A DNA stretch of 64,000 bases from assembly GCA_019044685.2 (NCBI GenBank), contig JAGTXX020000002.1, positions 558,001 through 622,000 on the forward strand. Direction: 5' to 3'. The position numbers and the translations under genes were made by a program. This DNA is from Nannochloris sp. 'desiccata'. Taxonomy: Eukaryota > Chlorophyta > Trebouxiophyceae > Chlorellales > Chlorellaceae. Shown here piece after piece: positions 8,644-46,169 of this stretch. The number at the start of each line of letters is the position of its first letter. Within the stretch, counting starts at the first letter, position 1. Under the pieces are notes generated by a model. That model searched no databases and had not been told where the DNA came from. It saw only the letters and a program-made list of their open reading frames with translations.

Positions 8644-8843
8644 GTTGCAAACGTTGATATTCACTAGCTTCAAGGAAGCGGCCTAAAAGGTATTTACTGT
8701 AATCAGTAATTTCTATTGCAGGAATTATATTTATAATATATTATTAGAATTTCAGAATCTGCGTGGAAACTGAAATATAAAGAATCAGAGAAATAGATAG
8801 TCAAAAGGTGGGCTAAGTTTGGGCGCAAAGCAGCGCTCTGTAC

Positions 8844-9237
8844 TAGAGGGGAAAATACACAAGTGCAAGTAAAAACTGAGAGCGAGAAAAAACAGCATAT
8901 CAAGAAAAAATAAATAAAAACTTACCCTAGAAATCGTTGCTGATCAACGCTGGCTATTCCCAATCTATAGTATACCCCTCTCCCCTCAAAAATAAGAATG
9001 TCTTTGCAAAAATTACCTGTATAGAGCACGGTGAAAACCAGAAGAATGATGTCAGTAATTGCATCTAAGAGCAATAACAAGTGATATTGCCCTCCCAAGA
9101 GTCCCTAGCCAGCGTGATAATTAATTATTTTATGACAAATTTGTTGTATGTCGGCGGAGCGGAAGAGCGACAATAAATTAATTGATTTTTCGCAAGGCTG
9201 CAGAGGGGAAAGATTGCTGGCATTGTTTCTTTAAAAG
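8844..9237 (-). repeat. Pseudo-LTR, 3' copy of the Penelope-like element
   Basis: 394 bp, direct repeat of 13202-13595 at constant offset 4358. No differences were seen on reading both by eye. Starts TAGAGGGGAAAATACAC and ends GTTTCTTTAAAAG on the plus strand. Confidence 0.92.
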
Positions 9238-9413
9238 AAACTAAGAGATGATAGGCACGGCTCGGAAGCAAGGTAGACGGTAGACGAGCTTCCAGAGTCC
9301 CACGCGCCAAGGCCCACCTCGGGCGACAAGCCTGAGGCACTGTATCATCACCATCAGCCTTAAAAATTCAGCAATTAGACATCATCTCCATAATAACAGT
9401 AGCCACTGTATTT

Positions 9414-12400
9414 TCATACGGTAGTATCAGTCCTATAGACGTGATAAAACGCCTCATAAGCGTCCCCAATTTTGATATCCTTAGCAGCTCGCCGTGAAGC
9501 AGAAAAAAGGCATAGTAAGCAAAAGAACGTAGATTCAATAGTCCTACGTAAATTTTCTTGCGATGGCTGGCCATAACTATTAGTTGCATCAGAGAAACAG
9601 CAGTTCTTGAGCAAGCGGAGAAGCTTTTTCTGATTATAATTCTTAACCTTGACCATGAAGAAGAGGAGGAAAGCCATTTCAGCGACAAAATTTCCAAAAT
9701 CGGTAATGATTCTATTATATCTTCTAAACTGGCTCGTCAAGATACCATACTTGGAACCTGCTGCTAAATCACTAAAAACTTCAGGAAATTTTGCAAAATC
9801 TATATTAGCGTATCTTGGGCCTCTTCTTTTATCAAAAAGGTGGGTGACAAGGTAGCCAGCGGGCTGAACAGCGCCGGTGGCTGTATTGTAGACTGTTGGG
9901 CTGCTGTGGAGGATAGTCACATCAAGAAAATCGACAGAAAAACCATCATCTGTTTTTTCAAGCTGTAGCGTAGGTGGATAAAGTCCATGGAAACCATAAA
10001 TACTATGTTGATCCTCGGTAGTACCCAGAGAGGCTAACACAGTACCCGCTATTCTGAGAATATCATCAATGTAACGTTTTGATTTCGACAAAGCAACCAA
10101 TAAAACCAAAGCAAAAGCTCTCTTTTCGCAAGCCAGTGTAGTAAAGGACGTTGGGGTTGCTTGAGAGCGATCTAAACAAGTAGCAAGCTGTCGTAGGAAC
10201 TTTAATTCGTAGCAAAAAAGGTAGAGATTTGCAAGATTGACAGCAGCGTTGTGACCCATAGGGAGACCATCTCCTTGCTGGTGAACACGTGTCGCTACTT
10301 GAATATAAGACAGCCTAACACTACATTGGAGTAGTTTAATAGCATCTGCTTTGGTAAAAATTGGAGCGGAACTTCTTCGTGTGCTAGCTGCAATCGCCAT
10401 CGCAACTGGCACCCATTCAAAAACTAGTCCCGAAACTTTAAGGCATTCACCAACTGGCCATAGTTCGTGGATCAGCTCTGTAAGTTTAGCAATAAGATCT
10501 TCTTGGTCCAGATTGGTATAAAGTCTAGTGATATCAAACGTTTCCATATGAACTGGGGCGGCATGGAAGCTCCGGGACCGACAACGCTTGTCATGTTGAA
10601 AAAGGAAATCAGGAATATCAGAACTGGAAGTAATGATAAGATGTTGTAGGGATGCCATATTTTTCTTTTCATTGGGCCTGATTCTATCTAATTCTCTTTT
10701 CCAAAGGTCACCAATTTTCTCACCCAGTGCATTGAGCACGACGTTCAGCTTCACCGCCATTGGTGTTCCTGCTGTGTGGTAGGCAAGAGTTAGATATCTA
10801 AAACCAATAGGATCCTTATGTAGCTTGATAGTCAGAGCATACTTTGGAAGTCTGTAGAAAGGTGCAGGACCAGTAACCGGTACTGGTTGAGAAAGACCTT
10901 CTGCAAACTCAGGTGGAGCTGGCCGTGGCGGAATTTTAATATTCAAAGAGCTCGTCGCTTCAAGTATTTCGTTGACAGCTTGCTCTGCAGAGATATCTGG
11001 CTTGAATTGGAAGACAGGCCTCCCACTAAAAGCATTGGTAGCACCTAAATCATCAATTATCTTCTGGGCCACATAGTGCTTGCAAACAAAACCTGCTGTG
11101 TTGGGCAATTTATCGACCTCCGTGACGACAAAACGATTTTGCAAAGTAACACAATCAGCTTTCAGGTTTCGTGGAATGTACGGAGCAGTACTGGGTACGA
11201 GTAGGGTACCGTCTGCTACAGCATCTAATCGTTCTTTAGCTAAATTCAGAATACTATGTTTTTGGGGCTGAAAAATAACGATTGGTTGCGAGAAACTTGC
11301 TGATAATTTTTCATAGTATTTATTCAAAGCAATCTCGATATCCGCAAGGTGGGAAGCCTTTAAAGAAGCCGTAAGAACCCTATGCCTGGCTGGCCGATGA
11401 GACATAGATAAAGAAAACGCTTTCCCAAAATCTGGACCCACAACAGCTTCAATAAGCTTAGGATCAGCAGTAACCACATGATCATGTCCCGGCGGGCAGA
11501 AAACAAGAAAACGTGTTTTGCAGTCACATCCAGCCGTTGCTGACACTTCATAATCTTGCAATAGATCTTCATAGGTGGCATTATTGTAGAAAGTATTATG
11601 ATTCAAAAGCTGGCAGCGAAGTGGTAGTTTATGTTTGGCGACAACACGCGGATTAATTTTTCTTCTCAATGCTGCAGGTAGAGCAGCAACCACATTCGCA
11701 TCTTCAAAGATACCTGGAAGATTTATTATATCATAGGCCTGAGAATCATAGTAATATACCATAAGACACGTTTTCTTTTCTCTAGTAGGTGGACTTGTGC
11801 TAATATTATTAACGACATTCAACAACAATTCCGCCAACAACGCCTGCTTCTGCTCCGAGAAGTGTGGGTTAGGAGGAGTAGTATCCACGTTCAAAGGAGT
11901 CCTTGTTAATAGAAAAAACATGCGTAGTATGTGTTTTAGTCGCATTTGCATACCGTATGTGGTTTGCATCAGATGATTAACGACACCAACAGCACCATGT
12001 TGCTGCAAAAAACCTAACAAAAAACGAATACGTCGAACGTAGTTTCGACTAAGATGAGTATTTCGATATTCGTTGGGCTCCAATTGAAATTCAGTTTGCA
12101 AAGAAACTAAATGGAGATTGTTGCCTAGGCGCTGATAAGGAATATATGGATTCCTAGCCATCGAGGTGACGTATGCGGCAGGATCCCAAAACGGCAGTTG
12201 CATGAAGCAATAGTGTACGCCCGCAGGGACCTTGTTTGGCATCTTCAAATTAAAACCGTGTCCTAGCCTGTAATGAGTATTAAGCCTACGAATCCATCTT
12301 GTCTCAAGCTCATCAGCAGCATATCCTCTGAAGATTGGAGGAAAGAAACCGTTTTCCACGTCAGAATCACAGGGGATTCTCATAATTGGGAGGATGTAAC

Positions 12401-12899
12401 AGTCTTGAATGGAACCATTTTGCCTGATGAAATTATGTAGGGATCTAGGATGTAGATTCGTATTGTTGACATCATTACAATGCCCTTGATACCGACAAAA
12501 AGCTGAATTCTTCGTCTGCCCTACATATAGTCGGGTTTCACCTTTCCTCTGGAAGAAGATAACATAGATAACTCCTTTATCGTCTAAGGAGGGTAAGTTT
12601 AACTTAACACCCTCGAAATTTTCATTACGAGTTAATTGTGTGCTATAAGTCTTTATCAGACGGAGAAGTCGGAGGATATGTTTATGTTGCACGAAAACGT
12701 GAGCATGCGGGCCCGTCGGGGACATAATGTTCTTCTCCGACTTGACGAAGGCTAGTACTTGCAAATAGAAACGCATCAGGCGACCTTTATGTTTATTCCA
12801 ATCCACATTACGACCGTGACCAGGTAGACCAATGGCAGGTAGACGAGCTTGATTTGCCATGACTGTGGAGAAGGAAGAAATATTTTTGCAGAAGAACAT
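9414..12899 (-). CDS. GIY-YIG endonuclease-reverse transcriptase of a Penelope-like element
   Basis: A single uninterrupted ORF of 1,161 aa; a second in-frame Met at residue 14 (MANQARL) could be the start. GIY-YIG nuclease: GVIYV at 109-113, YVG at 125-127, likely catalytic Arg 136 and Glu 199 (DELETRWI). No Cys-Cys-His-His set lies between GIY and YIG. The linker carries GCDCK (CDC at 458-460). Reverse transcriptase: basic LPKYALTIKLHKDPIGFRYL near 684-703, motif A FDITRLYTNL with Asp 789, QGDGLPMGHN at 875-884, and catalytic YIDD at 943-946 (nucleotides 10073-10062). The enzyme would nick target DNA and prime cDNA synthesis from the nick. Lack of the CCHH motif points to the Chlamys subgroup of green algae. 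The ORF has no stop or frameshift, so the copy may be recent and active. Confidence 0.9.
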   Translation of the reverse strand: MFFCKNISSFSTVMANQARLPAIGLPGHGRNVDWNKHKGRLMRFYLQVLAFVKSEKNIMSPTGPHAHVFVQHKHILRLLRLIKTYSTQLTRNENFEGVKLNLPSLDDKGVIYVIFFQRKGETRLYVGQTKNSAFCRYQGHCNDVNNTNLHPRSLHNFIRQNGSIQDCYILPIMRIPCDSDVENGFFPPIFRGYAADELETRWIRRLNTHYRLGHGFNLKMPNKVPAGVHYCFMQLPFWDPAAYVTSMARNPYIPYQRLGNNLHLVSLQTEFQLEPNEYRNTHLSRNYVRRIRFLLGFLQQHGAVGVVNHLMQTTYGMQMRLKHILRMFFLLTRTPLNVDTTPPNPHFSEQKQALLAELLLNVVNNISTSPPTREKKTCLMVYYYDSQAYDIINLPGIFEDANVVAALPAALRRKINPRVVAKHKLPLRCQLLNHNTFYNNATYEDLLQDYEVSATAGCDCKTRFLVFCPPGHDHVVTADPKLIEAVVGPDFGKAFSLSMSHRPARHRVLTASLKASHLADIEIALNKYYEKLSASFSQPIVIFQPQKHSILNLAKERLDAVADGTLLVPSTAPYIPRNLKADCVTLQNRFVVTEVDKLPNTAGFVCKHYVAQKIIDDLGATNAFSGRPVFQFKPDISAEQAVNEILEATSSLNIKIPPRPAPPEFAEGLSQPVPVTGPAPFYRLPKYALTIKLHKDPIGFRYLTLAYHTAGTPMAVKLNVVLNALGEKIGDLWKRELDRIRPNEKKNMASLQHLIITSSSDIPDFLFQHDKRCRSRSFHAAPVHMETFDITRLYTNLDQEDLIAKLTELIHELWPVGECLKVSGLVFEWVPVAMAIAASTRRSSAPIFTKADAIKLLQCSVRLSYIQVATRVHQQGDGLPMGHNAAVNLANLYLFCYELKFLRQLATCLDRSQATPTSFTTLACEKRAFALVLLVALSKSKRYIDDILRIAGTVLASLGTTEDQHSIYGFHGLYPPTLQLEKTDDGFSVDFLDVTILHSSPTVYNTATGAVQPAGYLVTHLFDKRRGPRYANIDFAKFPEVFSDLAAGSKYGILTSQFRRYNRIITDFGNFVAEMAFLLFFMVKVKNYNQKKLLRLLKNCCFSDATNSYGQPSQENLRRTIESTFFCLLCLFSASRRAAKDIKIGDAYEAFYHVYRTDTTV

Positions 12900-13201
12900 G
12901 AAACTTAGTAATGAGAGGAGCTGGGCGTACTATAAACCCCCCCCCCCTCAGACCGTTCCTTTCCCGAAGAGTCTAGCAGGGAGCCACCCTCCTAGACTAC
13001 TTAGCTCTGTATGTGTGACTAAAACTCAAGTAGAAAAACATATGATAGAAAATTGATTGATAAGCGTGGATGGTGATCGCGACTACCTGCCGAAAGAGCT
13101 CCTAGAGATGTCGGAGGGGTCTTGACCTTCTGGGGGCTCGTCAAGAGTCTGCAGTTTGTCCAACTCCGAAGAGTAGACGTAACCCCCCAGAAATATAGGA
13201 A

Positions 13202-13595
13202 TAGAGGGGAAAATACACAAGTGCAAGTAAAAACTGAGAGCGAGAAAAAACAGCATATCAAGAAAAAATAAATAAAAACTTACCCTAGAAATCGTTGCTG
13301 ATCAACGCTGGCTATTCCCAATCTATAGTATACCCCTCTCCCCTCAAAAATAAGAATGTCTTTGCAAAAATTACCTGTATAGAGCACGGTGAAAACCAGA
13401 AGAATGATGTCAGTAATTGCATCTAAGAGCAATAACAAGTGATATTGCCCTCCCAAGAGTCCCTAGCCAGCGTGATAATTAATTATTTTATGACAAATTT
13501 GTTGTATGTCGGCGGAGCGGAAGAGCGACAATAAATTAATTGATTTTTCGCAAGGCTGCAGAGGGGAAAGATTGCTGGCATTGTTTCTTTAAAAG
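13202..13595 (-). repeat. Pseudo-LTR, 5' copy of the Penelope-like element
   Basis: 394-bp direct repeat of 8844-9237. I looked for a hammerhead ribozyme core (CTGATGA with GAAA) in this repeat on the element strand and did not find one, as expected for the N-terminal-endonuclease clade. Confidence 0.92.
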
Positions 13596-13947
13596 TAGTG
13601 TACTATAAATTCCCTCTTTCCATCTGTCTCTACATGTTTTCATATAATATGTAACACTGCTACGCCTACAAGGCTAACCCAGCACACCTTGTCTTACATT
13701 TTGGCACCCAAGGCCAAGGCGAATCTGCTCGCTCTCTAGATTGTCAAAAAAAAAACAGATCCCTAACACAACTTTTTTCACAACTTTTTTCACCAACCTC
13801 TTCTGTTGGCCTTAGTGATAAGTTATCGAGGTTTACCTAACCTATATACCTTGGCTAATCACCTTTGTAACTCTGTTTTGCTCCCAGCTGCAGATTTGCG
13901 ACCATTGATTTCTCAACATCGACTTTTTGTCTCCCCGTTGTGTAACA

Positions 13948-14133
13948 ATGCCTTCCAACCCTGTCTCTGGCACTGGCCATCTGGCACTGGCCAAGGCTCT
14001 GTTTGCACTTTGCCCAGCCCTGATGCCTTTTGAAAACGTTGATTTTAATGGGCGAGCAAGACTCGTCCCTGATCACCTTCAGATGGAGCTTACGGAATAT
14101 TTTAGATACCATATAAGACCATGCAGTTTCTAG
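13948..14133 (+). CDS. Hypothetical ORF in the second palindrome arm
   Basis: ATG at 13948 begins MPSNPVSGTGHLALAKALFA and ends HIRPCSF (61 aa); the mirror copy is on the minus strand, 15000-14815. A following frame near 14120 reads MQFLEAILSNDLYGSFRR, then frame 14226 reads MLAVLSTAGKKSLLDKGD. Together they look like one longer protein broken by frameshifts, but I recognise no family. Confidence 0.25.
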   Translation: MPSNPVSGTGHLALAKALFALCPALMPFENVDFNGRARLVPDHLQMELTEYFRYHIRPCSF

Positions 14134-14225
14134 AGGCCATCCTGAGTAATGATTTGTATGGAAGTTTCAGGAGAGCAGATGAGGCAAACAGGGGGCATAT
14201 TCCTCTGCTTGTAGAAGGTTAGACC

Positions 14226-14729
14226 ATGCTAGCTGTGTTGTCGACGGCGGGAAAAAAGTCACTATTAGACAAAGGGGATCGCAATACTTCATGGCTACGC
14301 CTGAAACTGCTTTCCAAGTTAGGATTTTCGCAGAAAACCGTGTATTTTAATAGCGAACGTGTGTATGCGTACGTCATTAATTTTTCTTCCCTACACGAAG
14401 AGCTGGCTGCGGCCATTGAAAACGTTTGGAACTTTAACAAAAGAGCTGATCTTGCAAAACACGGTCTATCGCCTCTTCAGAAAAAGGTAAAGAGTGGGAA
14501 TCTTGCGAAGTACCAAGACCAAACGTTTTCAATGGCCGCAGCCAGCTCTTCGTGTAGGGAAGAAAAATTAATGACGTACGCATACACACGTTCGCTATTA
14601 AAATACACGGTTTTCTGCGAAAATCCTAACTTGGAAAGCAGTTTCAGGCGTAGCCATGAAGTACTGCGATCCCCTTTGTCTAATAGTGACTTTTTTCCCG
14701 CCGTCGACAACACAGCTAGCATGGTCTAA
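14226..14729 (+). CDS. Hypothetical ORF spanning the centre of the second palindrome
   Basis: 167 codons from MLAVLSTAGKK run through the left arm, the spacer, and then antisense through the right arm. The first half (up to about 14500) is the only plausible protein. The second half is the complement of the same gene and is probably meaningless. Confidence 0.2.
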   Translation: MLAVLSTAGKKSLLDKGDRNTSWLRLKLLSKLGFSQKTVYFNSERVYAYVINFSSLHEELAAAIENVWNFNKRADLAKHGLSPLQKKVKSGNLAKYQDQTFSMAAASSSCREEKLMTYAYTRSLLKYTVFCENPNLESSFRRSHEVLRSPLSNSDFFPAVDNTASMV

Positions 14730-15346
14730 CCTTCTACAAGCAGAGGAATATGCCCCCTGTTTGCCTCATCTGCTCTCCTGAAACTTCCATACAAATCATT
14801 ACTCAGGATGGCCTCTAGAAACTGCATGGTCTTATATGGTATCTAAAATATTCCGTAAGCTCCATCTGAAGGTGATCAGGGACGAGTCTTGCTCGCCCAT
14901 TAAAATCAACGTTTTCAAAAGGCATCAGGGCTGGGCAAAGTGCAAACAGAGCCTTGGCCAGTGCCAGATGGCCAGTGCCAGAGACAGGGTTGGAAGGCAT
15001 TGTTACACAACGGGGAGACAAAAAGTCGATGTTGAGAAATCAATGGTCGCAAATCTGCAGCTGGGAGCAAAACAGAGTTACAAAGGTGATTAGCCAAGGT
15101 ATATAGGTTAGGTAAACCTCGATAACTTATCACTAAGGCCAACAGGAGAGGTTGGTGAAAAAAGTTGTGAAAAAAGTTGTGTTAGGGATCTGTTTTTTTT
15201 TTGACAATCTAGAGAGCGAGCAGATTCGCCTTGGCCTTGGGTGCCAAAATGTAAGACAAGGTGTGCTGGGTTAGCCTTGTAGGCGTAGCAGTGTTACATA
15301 TTATATGAAAACATGTAGAGACAGATGGAAAGAGGGAATTTATAGT

Positions 15347-21887: not shown

Positions 21888-22741
21888 CTATTCTGTAGTA
21901 CATTCTCTATGTAACGAATGTAATATATGACCAAAAACCGACAGCGGCGGCAGAATTTTCCTTCCACTAACACCACAATATTTCCACTAAACGCCAATTT
22001 CCGGCGATACTAACTTTTCTCCACTTCATTCTACAACATCGTCTCTCCATTTCTCAAGCTATCAATCCCATTCACTTAATCTCTCTTCTTTCTGCTAATT
22101 TTTCAAACACATCTTTGATCGAAAATACTTTTTTCTTATTTTGATCCCTTCCCCACACTTCACCCCTTTTCCTAACAATAAAAAGTTTGTTCTTAGATTT
22201 CTTACATTTTTATCTATATCTTTTTCGCATTTTGCGTTTATTTTTGCTCTGACAACCTTAGCACCCTGAAAAGTGTGCTGTGCTGCTGACTGGGAGCACC
22301 CAATAGCACCTTCGACGACAACCCTGCAGCACCTATACACAGCCGAGTTCCTCCTACGATGGTCTACTAATCAAAACTCGTGCTAACTAACCTGGAATCA
22401 GTCCTCACCTCTTCCCAAGCCCCTCTGTAGGTACGTAAAACACTATACCTGCTGTCTGCATCCCATTTTTCTATTTTGCCCACTATCTCCTCTATGCTAG
22501 CGCGAGTTTTGGATTAGAGATTCAGTCGAATAAAGAATATATTACAAACCCACGCAGCTTGCTGCGTCAATCTTCAGTAAGTGTTTTCTCCTAGAGAAGC
22601 TCATTCTGTATGATAAGCGAATATATGACCAACTTTCAGAAAAGTAAGTCTTTTTCAGCAGAGAGAAATCTCGAGATCTCTAGAAACACGGGACGGGGCA
22701 GTTGCATTTCTTCTTTATCTTCTAAATTTTTAAACATATAA
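21888..22741. other. Intergenic region between convergent U1A and SPF30
   Basis: About 850 bp without a convincing ORF. AT-rich with pyrimidine runs; a small inverted repeat CGCAGCTTGCTGCG near 22554 could be a hairpin. I cannot assign an RNA gene. Confidence 0.35.
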
Positions 22742-42538: not shown

Positions 42539-45500
42539 ATGGGTGCCGAGCACGGTAGCCTACATTTTGGAGCCATACTGCTGGTATTTGTGCTGATAAC
42601 AACAATACCCAGTGCACAAGCTGCTAAACCAGTGACGAGGCAGGTCAATAACACTTTAGTATGGAATATGGCCTCGTATGCTGTTCTATCGACATCAAGC
42701 ATCGTTGAAGATAGGTTGCCATTTGTTGGTTTAAGGTTCTTGGGACCAAATGTTCAAATATTTGATGATGTCAGCAGCCCTGCGTTTAAATATACATATT
42801 CTGGTAAGCATAGAGACGTGGAGTCACCTTTTTTTTCATTGCAGAGGCCATTAAAGACATTCTTTTAGGAAGAGCAGTCAAATTTCTAATTCAAATTCTA
42901 TCCCTTTGTTTCTGCAGTTGTTTCTCCATCCCCCTCGTTAACCGATAAGCCTTGGTATAAGTTTGCAATCAGTAACGCATCTATCCCTCAGTCTAGCGGC
43001 GGCAGTTTATATATGGGAAGCTTACTCTTGTTGAGAGGAGATCTCCCCGACACGGACACCGTTCAAACATATAATCTAACGCTGAGAGCTGCTGAAAAAG
43101 GTAATCTGACAAGCTACACAGATATTCTCATCGTGGCTCAAGTACCACCACCGGTACGTACTTCGAGGTATACTCTCAGTGTATCTGATCTTACAGCTCC
43201 TTTGGAAACGCAACAAGCAAGGATTGCAAATAAGTGGTTCGTTGATAGGTTCCCTCCTCAACAGTTTTACAATAATGGAGTTGTTTTAGGGAAAAAAGAC
43301 GTAAGTATATGATAGTAGCAACATTCTTATAAGGTCGCATATATATCTAGCTAAACTCTTCCTCTCTATTTGGTACAGGTCTTGGCTATCGAGGTTGGGT
43401 CATCTGGCCAGCCGTCTGCTCGGCAGCAGACTTTTGGCGACACAACCTTGGAAGCAGAGGAATATAATTTTCAAGGAAGACGTCACCAGGTAGCTGAATT
43501 CATCCCCGATGCAACCTCTACTACATTCACTGCGAGTCTGTACATCCCAGAGGACTGGATCGATGCCTATCCAGGGTCTTCACTGTGCAGTTCTCAAAAT
43601 CCAAGCAACCCCGATGCATGTGCACGGAAAACAGAGTTTGCAGTAGAATTTGCCGCGTCGGATGGTTCTACAGTGACACCTACAATTAATATCAGGGCTG
43701 GATTCGACAATAGAGACTCTACTAAAGTGGATGTAGGCCCAGCGCCATTTCTGTACTTGGCCTTCGACGGTCCAATTGTGGGGAACGCCGAGTGGAATTC
43801 GACTGTGTCAGGGAAAACAGGCAAGTATGCTGCATATTTCCCGTTAAAGAATCCTCTTTATGGTTGGGAGACAACAGAAACATACGTAAGGGATCAGATA
43901 GGGCAAAATATGCTACGCAGGAATGATTGGAATCAATTTTCTTTTACTGTGCGGAGATACCCTGGAGATCCTGTAGCATCTACTAGTCGATTATGCGCAG
44001 AAACATTCAACATCGAGTGGATGGTGAATGGTATCAAGCATTTTCTTGGCCCCAACACGACTATAGCGGCGTCTTTCTGCACTCGGTACCCTTCCGCCCT
44101 CGGAGGCGGGTACACGACTTTAAACACTAATTATGCGAGAGACATTATTGTTTCAGCATACAATCCACCGCAGAATGTTTCTACCGTGCAGCAATATACA
44201 GCGCTTTGGTCAGACCTGAATGTTTTTAGAGGCACGACAGATGTCAATGAACTCTTGGCAGCTCCACTACTGAGCCCGCCGCCGCCCTCACCACCACCAC
44301 CGAGCCCGCCGCCGCCTAGTCCTCCTCCAAGCCCGCCATCACCCTCACCACCACCACCAAGCCCCACTCCTCCTTTACCACCACCAAGCCCACCACCACC
44401 CTCACCACCACCGAGCCCGCCGCCGCCTAGTCCTCCTCCAAGCCCGCCGCCGCCCTCACCACCACCGAGCCCCCCTCCTCCTTTACCGCCACCAAGCCCG
44501 CCACCGCACTCACCCCCGCCAAGCCCGCCGCCTCATAGTCCTCCTCCAAGCCCGCCATCACCCTCACCACCACCACCAAGCCCCACTCCTCCTTTACCAC
44601 CACCAAGCCCACCACCGCCCTCACCACCACCGAGCCCGCCGCCGCCTAGTCCTCCTCCAAGCCCGCCGCCACCCTCACCCCCGCCAATCCCACCACCGTC
44701 CTCACCACCACCAAGCTCCGATCCTACTTTACAAGCGACAAGCTCGCCACCTCCTTCCCTCCCGCTACCCTCGCCACCACCAAGCCCCCCTCCTTCTTTA
44801 CCTCCTCCAAACTCACTTCCTCCTTCCCCACCTGCAAGCCCACCACCACCTTCCTCCCCTCCAGGCCCGCCGCCGCCATTACCTTCCCCAGTACTGAGCC
44901 CCCCTCCTCCCCCACCACGAAGCCTCGCTCCACTACCAAGTTCTATCCCTGTCCCTGCACCTTCCCCTTCCCCAGTACCATCACCTACGCCTATTCCTAT
45001 TGCTCAAGATCCAAATCCTTCCTCTTTACCTAGTTCCCCTAACGACTCTCCAGACTGGTCATTACCAATACAAGAACCTGTGCCCTCCCCCGGTCCTGAT
45101 GCCGGTGCAGCACAGGATACTGATATAGAAATTGTAGAGGATGGTAGTGTGCCACCGCCACCACCAAAAGCGCCAAACCAGAAGTCGTCGCCTCCACCAA
45201 AGAGAAAGCCGAAGCCACCCCCGCCAGTGAAGAAGCCAGTTAAAAGACCGCCTCCGCCAGTGAAAAAGCCAATTAAAAGACCAACCCCGCCAGTGAAGAA
45301 GCCAGTTAAAAGACCACCCCCGCCAGTGAAGAAGCCAATTAAAAGACCCCCTCCGCCAGTGAAGAAGCCAATTAAAAGACCACCTCCGCCAGCGAAGAAG
45401 CCAGTTACGAGACCACCTTCGCCAATGAGGAAACCAATTAAAAGACCCCCTCCGCCAGTGAAGAAGCCAGTTACAAGACCACCTCCGCCAATGAAGAAGC

Positions 45501-45721
45501 CAGTTACAAGACCACCTCCGCCAATGAAGAAACCGGTACGGAAGCCCCCACCTCCTTTAAAACAGAAAAGATCGCCACCACCCAAACAGGTTGCAAGGCG
45601 TCCGCCCCAAAGGAGACCGGTTGTATCTGTAGGAGGAAGATTTCCTGGTGTAGTAGGAGCTAAGAAATGGAGATTTGCTCAAGAAACGACTGCTAATCAC
45701 GCGTATCAGCAACCTGTTTAA
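42539..45721 (+). CDS. Secreted hydroxyproline-rich wall glycoprotein with a cationic repeat tail, 3 exons
   Basis: Exons 42539-42803, 42918-43300 and 43379-45721 give 996 aa. A signal peptide (FGAILLVFVLITTIPSAQA) leads a domain of about 500 residues with many N-glycosylation sequons and no family I recognise. Residues about 513-800 are Ser-Pro-rich (SPPPPSPPPP units), as in pherophorins, extensins and other algal wall proteins whose prolines are hydroxylated and glycosylated. Residues about 811-950 change to ten 11-residue units of type PPPPVKKPVKR, strongly basic. The end reads PPQRRPVVSVGG then a short non-repeat tail. Probably extracellular-matrix protein; the basic tail could bind acidic polysaccharide. 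The minus-strand Gly-rich ORFs here are shadows. Confidence 0.8.
44270..44960 (+). repeat. Ser-Pro-rich degenerate repeat coding for SPPPP units
   Basis: Codons for Ser-Pro and Pro runs (CCACCACCGAGCCCGCC-type) in imperfect tandem, including two near-identical blocks around 44325-44460 and 44557-44680, implying an internal duplication. Confidence 0.8.
45215..45544 (+). repeat. 33-bp tandem repeat, about 10 copies, coding for PPPPVKKPVKR units
   Basis: Ten in-frame units of 11 residues. Variants replace Val with Ala or Met and KR with TR. The DNA copies are similar enough to have spread by unequal exchange. Confidence 0.9.
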
Positions 45722-46169
45722 CAAACAAAGCCGATAACGTCGCTTCAATACCCTTACCGGCCGAGGCTCCCCTGCTAAAAAATCCTGGTATCATGGTGGA
45801 AACTGCAACGAGCAGTACGGAAAATGGTATTGCACCTTCATCGGAGGACAGCATTTAATAGAACAGAATAAAATTAATGAAAATAAAGTTTGAGTCTATG
45901 AATCGGCCGCAAGCGGTTAAAAACAAGACCCTCTGTCGGGTGCCTCCCTTGGCTTGTACAAAAGCCTGGGAAGGAAATATATTGTATATTACTGATTTAT
46001 ATTTGTTTAGAGCTTAATTAGTACCTTTAGTGCTTATAGACCACTTTTGCTGTCGAAATTTTTTCAAAACAAAAGTTGTAAAGAAACCCAATTTATTTGT
46101 GAGAAGCAGCATATCAGCCTAACTACGGTATTTCACCTTTCACACCTCATTTAGATATCAACACTGAAC
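45722..46169. other. Spacer between the wall glycoprotein and RRP4
   Basis: 448 bp without an ORF of note. Holds the glycoprotein 3' region (TGTAA near 46076) and the RRP4 promoter. Nothing else seen. Confidence 0.4.

Follow-up and report, generated by a model that had tools for sequence, protein, structure and literature searches.

A 64,000-nucleotide stretch of contig JAGTXX020000002.1 of the green alga Nannochloris sp. 'desiccata' (positions 558,001 to 622,000; referred to here as the window) contains, at positions 8846 to 13598 of the minus strand, what is very probably a recently inserted and potentially autonomous Penelope-like retroelement (PLE) with an N-terminal endonuclease and Chlamys-type features. 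Elements of this kind have already been described, and the window copy is a useful new example in a small green alga, Nannochloris (a genus of the Trebouxiophyceae), and not a new phenomenon. An original prediction had proposed an intact PLE with an N-terminal endonuclease, and this proposal was supported by the order of the domains, the catalytic residues, the presence of pseudo-long terminal repeats (pseudo-LTRs) and a target-site duplication.

The whole element, designated family A, is 4,753 bp in length. Its limits were set by a 7-bp target-site duplication, TGTACTA, whose left copy (8839 to 8845, on the 3' side of the element) and right copy (13599 to 13605, on the 5' side) bracket 8846 to 13598 exactly; this duplication was additional to the features noted in the original prediction. 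Two 394-bp pseudo-LTRs were present on the minus strand, a 3' repeat at 8844 to 9237, the first two plus-strand bases of which are common to the duplication, and a 5' repeat at 13202 to 13595, which is separated from the duplication by three extra bases (13596 to 13598). Comparison of the two repeats detected identity at 394 of 394 positions, in keeping with the earlier impression that they were identical. As had also been proposed, a single open reading frame (ORF) of 1,161 codons without a stop extends over 9414 to 12899 of the minus strand. Met14, at 12860, is the likely start since the same start is found in a deposited protein (P0001) and in aligned relatives. This deposited protein, NADE_007717 of Nannochloris sp. 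'desiccata', which is annotated as 'hypothetical', was the best protein match.

Examination of the ORF bore out the positions and the order previously given for the GIY-YIG domain, a CDC motif and the YIDD motif. A predicted GIY-YIG endonuclease domain, assigned from Pfam model PF01541 and the catalytic residues, occupies residues ∼109 to 222 (12234 to 12575, minus strand). When residues 101 to 234 were searched alone, this model gave 19.0 bits (E value of 0.0017) with an aligned stretch of 108 to 148. The residues G109, Y112, Y125, G127, R136, H140, E199 and W202 were identified in the protein, and Y112, Y125, G127, R136, H140 and E199 lie in the register expected from homing nucleases. The linker carries a CxC motif (CDC, residues 458 to 460; 11520 to 11528, minus strand), and 10 of the 11 sequences in an alignment of relatives (A2) contained CxC, one of the 10 being a second family A copy on contig C5; the 11th row, L033, is a fragment ending short of the linker. 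The C-terminal part contains a predicted reverse transcriptase (RT) region at residues ∼586 to 1100 (9600 to 11144, minus strand), which was assigned from conserved motifs in A2 and from a profile comparison with the host telomerase, and the predicted catalytic YIDD lies at residues 943 to 946 (10062 to 10073, minus strand).

This arrangement was compared with that of the other PLE branches. Naiad elements form the other N-terminal-nuclease branch; they share the domain order and CxC linker of family A and reportedly carry a CCHH set between GIY and YIG. In the window protein, 12 residues separate the GIY tyrosine from the YIG tyrosine, and these contained no Cys (counted) and no His (read off the same output), so that the CCHH set is absent, as the original prediction had stated. 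To our knowledge, Naiads are confined to invertebrates, which also counts against this assignment, and a Naiad-type element is highly unlikely. EN-minus (endonuclease-lacking) PLEs such as Athena and Coprina have no nuclease and a telomeric location; such an element was ruled out by the presence of the nuclease and by the insertion site of the window copy, which lies at C2:566,846 in an 804,739-bp contig.

A protein search of the genome assembly (21.55 Mb in 18 contigs) detected two family A copies in which the ORF is nearly complete, one in the window and the other on C5. The C5 copy was 99.7% identical to the window copy over 4,297 bp and carries its own duplication, TTACTTTA, but is 5' truncated, stopping 62 bp before the expected start of the 5' pseudo-LTR. 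Up to residue 1136, the two ORFs differed by point changes at five codons, four of which change the amino acid. The suggestion that the insertion is recent was supported by the pseudo-LTRs, the duplication and the level of identity to this second copy. Use of the pseudo-LTR identity as an insertion clock was rejected because both repeats may come from one template, and age was judged by copy-to-copy identity alone.

The original prediction had called for a genome-wide count of copies, and this count yielded at least 41 places with a pseudo-LTR match, including both pseudo-LTRs of four elements. The 3' end of the element (query base 1 or 2) was kept in 33 of the 41 listed matches; 18 of these 33 ended within the pseudo-LTR and 15 reached its far end. 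A fixed 3' end combined with inner stops is the pattern expected of target-primed reverse transcription with early stops.

Target-site duplications were then counted in copies with a definable boundary. Nine of the 41 places were dropped, namely C17:201946 (same flanks as the copy at C17:458116), two tandem places on C15 (L061), C10:61931 (a fragment), two inverted places on C10 (L067), C15:543734 and C15:715297 (identical flanks) and C8:82225 (no 3' end); the remaining 32 places represent 29 copies. Small offsets at either end were permitted equally in the data and in a control with re-paired flanks (1,000 rounds). Duplications of at least 5 bp were detected in 13 of the 29 copies, compared to a mean of 1.05 and a maximum of 5 for the re-paired flanks, and duplications of at least 6 bp in 9 copies, compared to a mean of 0.29 and a maximum of 3. 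A T was present one base outside the 3' end in 20 of the 29 copies. Copies were arranged in tandem in L061 and in a head-to-head inverted orientation in L067, resembling arrangements reported for PLEs in the available text of PMC3846280 and PMC11167929. The L067 arrangement consists of two diverged family A pseudo-LTR pieces separated by 6 bp.

The RT region was examined further by comparison with telomerase. The host telomerase (TERT; locus L087) was identified via its telomerase RNA-binding domain, with a score of 121 bits. An hhalign comparison of a ten-row PLE profile (A3) with this protein detected an in-register alignment extending over motif A, the insertion region and motif B, with a score of 38.4. 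None of 60 shuffles of the telomerase scored above 25.6, and the scores of three Gypsy proteins were 19.6 to 20.1. Omission of family A from the profile lowered the score to 32.1 over a shorter stretch (shuffles of at most 24.6). The interval separating RT motif A from motif B (residues ∼810 to 875; 10275 to 10472, minus strand), which is in register with the host TERT in the profile, may therefore be a counterpart of the telomerase insertion-in-fingers domain.

The direct repeats give the element a superficial likeness to an LTR retrotransposon, and we considered whether it could be an LTR or Gypsy element, a long interspersed nuclear element (LINE) or a canonical PLE with a C-terminal nuclease. 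Several results count against these classes. The repeats have no TG...CA ends and the copies are 5' truncated. A genome-wide RVT_1 search placed neither the window element nor the C5 copy among the 135 matches listed; the host telomerase was also missing from this list. The scores of the three Gypsy proteins against the PLE profile were comparable to those of shuffled sequence, a comparison in which no LINE was included. The C-terminal 177 residues had no Pfam match and the predicted nuclease is N-terminal, unlike in a canonical PLE. Assignment to any of these three classes is thus extremely improbable.

Several results weigh against identification of the window element as a potentially autonomous PLE with an N-terminal endonuclease. 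The GIY-YIG score of 19.0 bits is below the Pfam cut-off of 22.6, the full-length protein had no Pfam match at E values up to 1, and the reverse TRANSCRIPTASE region of family A had no match to any Pfam RT model. A genome-wide GIY-YIG search (E values up to 1) detected five places, among them a second PLE family (family B) but neither family A copy. No alignment of the profile to the GIY-YIG domain of a host MSH1-like protein was obtained, the best E value being 0.45 in another region, and hence the nuclease assignment draws on the Pfam match and the conserved residues. The hhalign probability of the telomerase match was 17.7% (E value of 0.0014 for the one comparison), and the window protein on its own scored 21.1 against the host telomerase, which is within the range of the shuffles; the link to telomerase consequently belongs to the group of PLEs and not to the window protein by itself. 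Among the 29 copies, 16 had no duplication of at least 5 bp, and no microsatellite preference was seen, as 1 of the 29 copies had a simple repeat of at least 10 nucleotides within 40 bp, compared to 1.1% of 5,000 positions drawn at random from the window and six further loci. Finally, a frameshift gives the window and C5 proteins different tails from residue 1142, affecting the last 20 residues of the window protein, so that the full integrity of the window ORF is uncertain; these data cannot say which of the two tails is native. The difference between the tails of two near-identical copies is what would be expected if the window copy were immobile, with a defective C-terminus or other part, and the family A copies had come from another source. 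This explanation, which would leave the identification of the element unchanged, is somewhat unlikely, as the reading frame continues uninterrupted through the catalytic motifs, the two pseudo-LTRs match exactly and the C5 copy contains five point-changed codons before the shift.

The results fit an assignment of this N-terminal-endonuclease PLE to the Chlamys group. Craig et al. (2021) are said to characterize Chlamys elements by an N-terminal endonuclease, no CCHH set, a CxC linker, no canonical hammerhead and a telomerase-like insertion in the RT fingers; a bias of insertion towards microsatellites is reportedly a tendency of the clade and not part of its definition. Compared to this description, family A is alike in having a predicted N-terminal GIY-YIG nuclease without CCHH, a CxC linker, a C-terminal RT, pseudo-LTRs with tandem and inverted insertions, no canonical hammerhead and a green-algal host. 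With regard to the hammerhead, an Rfam search of 8700 to 13700 at E values up to 10 gave five weak matches far under the cut-offs and none to a hammerhead, and the pattern CTGANGA...GAAA was absent from the element strand and occurred once on the opposite strand, inside the ORF. The earlier placement in the 'Chlamys branch' therefore agrees with these shared features, as they are reported, but not with the microsatellite tendency, nor does it sit easily with the identity of 22 to 27% between family A and the other relatives found. The description of this clade as rare was overstated, as the available text of PMC12477816, in which a 'Chlamys group of PLEs' is named, reports three Chlamys families in Ectocarpus alone with 4,782 copies, 27 of them intact.

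The low identity of the window protein to the nine A2 proteins outside its own family suggested that family A may be a separate lineage. A third lineage of N-terminal-nuclease PLEs, with Chlamys features but branching outside both Chlamys and Naiad, would change the filing only and leave the mechanism as it is. The lack of a visible microsatellite bias and a very long family A branch of 5.4 to 5.9 changes per site would be consistent with such a lineage. That branch length comes from an unrooted tree with two very long branches and without named Chlamys or Naiad references, from which no clade claim was drawn; the program warned that placement of the long rows is unsure, and fast evolution inside Chlamys could also give long branches. 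We regard a third lineage as unlikely and retain the Chlamys-type assignment.

A shorter element, N1, was detected at locus L057. This element is 1,363 bp in length, has two 378-bp pseudo-LTRs and matches family A at ∼90% identity over 8844 to 9433 and 12777 to 13595, indicating that most of the ORF is missing from N1. Other copies were 99.8% (C13), 99.2% (a tandem copy on C15) and 99.6% (truncated copies on C17) identical to that of L057; the two C17 copies have common flanks and thus represent one insertion that was duplicated. On this comparison of sequences, N1 is a young internal-deletion derivative. No autonomous element closer to N1 than family A was listed in either a protein search or an N1 DNA search of the genome. 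Comparison of the N1 and family A pseudo-LTRs by block from the 3' end showed identity at 50 of 50 and 39 of 50 positions, then at 146 of 150 over bases 101 to 250, and at 40 of 51, 43 of 50 and 39 of 44 beyond base 250 (∼90% overall). As bases 101 to 250 were also highly conserved, the 3' end is not uniquely conserved between the two. It is plausible that family A mobilizes N1 in trans, and recombination could be an alternative source of the patchy identity.

On the basis of the domains and repeats, of the duplications and the pattern of truncated ends, and of the near-identical copies observed in this genome, we infer the following cycle. An RNA extending across pseudo-LTR, ORF and pseudo-LTR would be translated, and the predicted N-terminal GIY-YIG domain would nick the host DNA largely regardless of sequence. 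Starting from the fixed 3' end of the RNA, the predicted RT would use the nick for priming and copy in the 5' direction, often halting early, while a cut of the second strand a few bases away would generate duplications of mostly 5 to 8 bp. The pseudo-LTRs would derive from tandem or partly tandem templates, and the family A enzymes may also move N1. A bolder proposal, in which family A is a third deep lineage that has lost microsatellite targeting, cuts almost anywhere with mostly 5- to 8-bp duplications and drives the partner-less N1 in trans via a common 3'-terminal recognition sequence, is quite unlikely.

Parallels for the Chlamys-type cycle are found in other PLEs. The Penelope families of Adineta vaga differ from family A in having an animal host and reportedly have a C-terminal nuclease. 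According to the available text of PMC3846280, they resemble family A in their pLTRs, short duplications, inverted pLTRs, internal-deletion derivative and integration in trans, with duplications of 8 to 10 bp that are absent from some insertions. A fixed 3' end, a variable 5' end, short duplications and tandem or inverted arrangements are reported PLE footprints (PMC3846280 and PMC11167929, in their available text). The Poseidon element of Anolis carolinensis (PAc), as presented in the accessible part of PMC11167929, shares with family A a PLE-type RT, a GIY-YIG nuclease and tandem pseudo-LTR organization, but has a C-terminal nuclease and a hammerhead ribozyme. The canonical PAc protein performs DNA cleavage and reverse transcription in vitro (PMC11167929), and by analogy family A may use similar chemistry, although with its nuclease at the opposite end of the protein.

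The second family of this genome, family B (L028), has an N-terminal Pfam GIY-YIG match (21.3 bits; E value of 0.00033), a CxC linker, identical 716-bp pseudo-LTRs and, as judged by eye, a duplication of 7 bp (GATTTTC). Families A and B are thus alike in domain order, linker, identity of the pseudo-LTRs and length of the duplication but differ in the length and sequence of the pseudo-LTRs and have 29% protein identity (three-row alignment). In the RT part of family B, a 100% match was obtained to two deposited proteins, NADE_009129 and KSW81_006103, and further genome matches to the family B protein were partial. The window itself contains a solo 5'-truncated family B pseudo-LTR (21933 to 22621, minus strand), with 99.7% identity over 689 of 716 bp and a 9-bp duplication, GGTCATATA, on both sides by eye. 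An inverted family B pseudo-LTR with 99.9% identity lies at 1409 to 2124 of L028, ∼200 bp from the full-length copy, with TCTAAGGTAT on both sides by eye. Near-identical remnants of another PLE family, which have 48 to 81% identity to family B depending on the piece, were located ∼12 kb apart at C6:1176369 to 1177499 and C6:1188820 to 1189950.

Several general searches missed the window protein, which is divergent. In the protein database, NADE_007717 was the sole match to both the full-length query and a two-family profile, while a search with the RT part of family B, in which scoring was limited to the 7,990 candidates with the most words in common, detected nine proteins, two of them from Nannochloris. 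Among these relatives, P0004 to P0007 had N-terminal Pfam GIY-YIG matches of 18.7 to 24.3 bits and P0010 one of 16.6 bits, with the same domain order as family A; an unrelated KH-like model scored slightly higher in P0010 (19.3 bits). Only P0004 exceeded the 22.6-bit cut-off among these five proteins and L028. P0008 and P0009, in which the N-terminal part is missing, had no Pfam GIY-YIG match. NCBIfam gave no match for the window protein and weak matches to a group I intron endonuclease for L028 (E value of 0.027) and P0004 (E value of 0.014). Solved structures gave no match for the protein alone and four matches for the profile, at E values of 0.1 to 0.66, to unrelated proteins. Pattern scans of viral and prokaryote contigs confirmed no relative, and a search of the open-licence literature found no papers pairing Penelope-like elements with Trebouxiophyceae or Nannochloris with transposable elements and Penelope.

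Other features were observed in the vicinity of the window element. A perfect inverted repeat at 13602 to 15346, with 828-bp arms (13602 to 14429 and 14519 to 15346) and an 89-bp loop, adjoins the 5' end of the element, and its left edge lies within the target-site duplication. The arm had 15 matches in the genome, six of which were diverged copies (71 to 90%) starting at the first base of the arm. This structure is probably a terminal-inverted-repeat or foldback element into the edge of which the PLE was inserted. Locus L043 contains its own inverted repeat of 427 bp (99%). Elsewhere in the window, positions 44001 to 46000 had a GC content of 0.553 and a GC skew of -0.37, compared to a GC content of 0.39 to 0.52 in the other 2-kb steps.

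In vitro work on PLEs, as described in the available text of PMC11167929, has concerned a canonical element with a C-terminal nuclease. With two almost identical copies, a young derivative carrying a deletion and another PLE family, this 21.6-Mb algal genome provides a compact natural system, which would serve questions of how N-terminal-nuclease PLEs choose their targets, form pseudo-LTRs and move partners in trans. There would also be a gain in annotation for a protein that is present in public databases only as 'hypothetical'.

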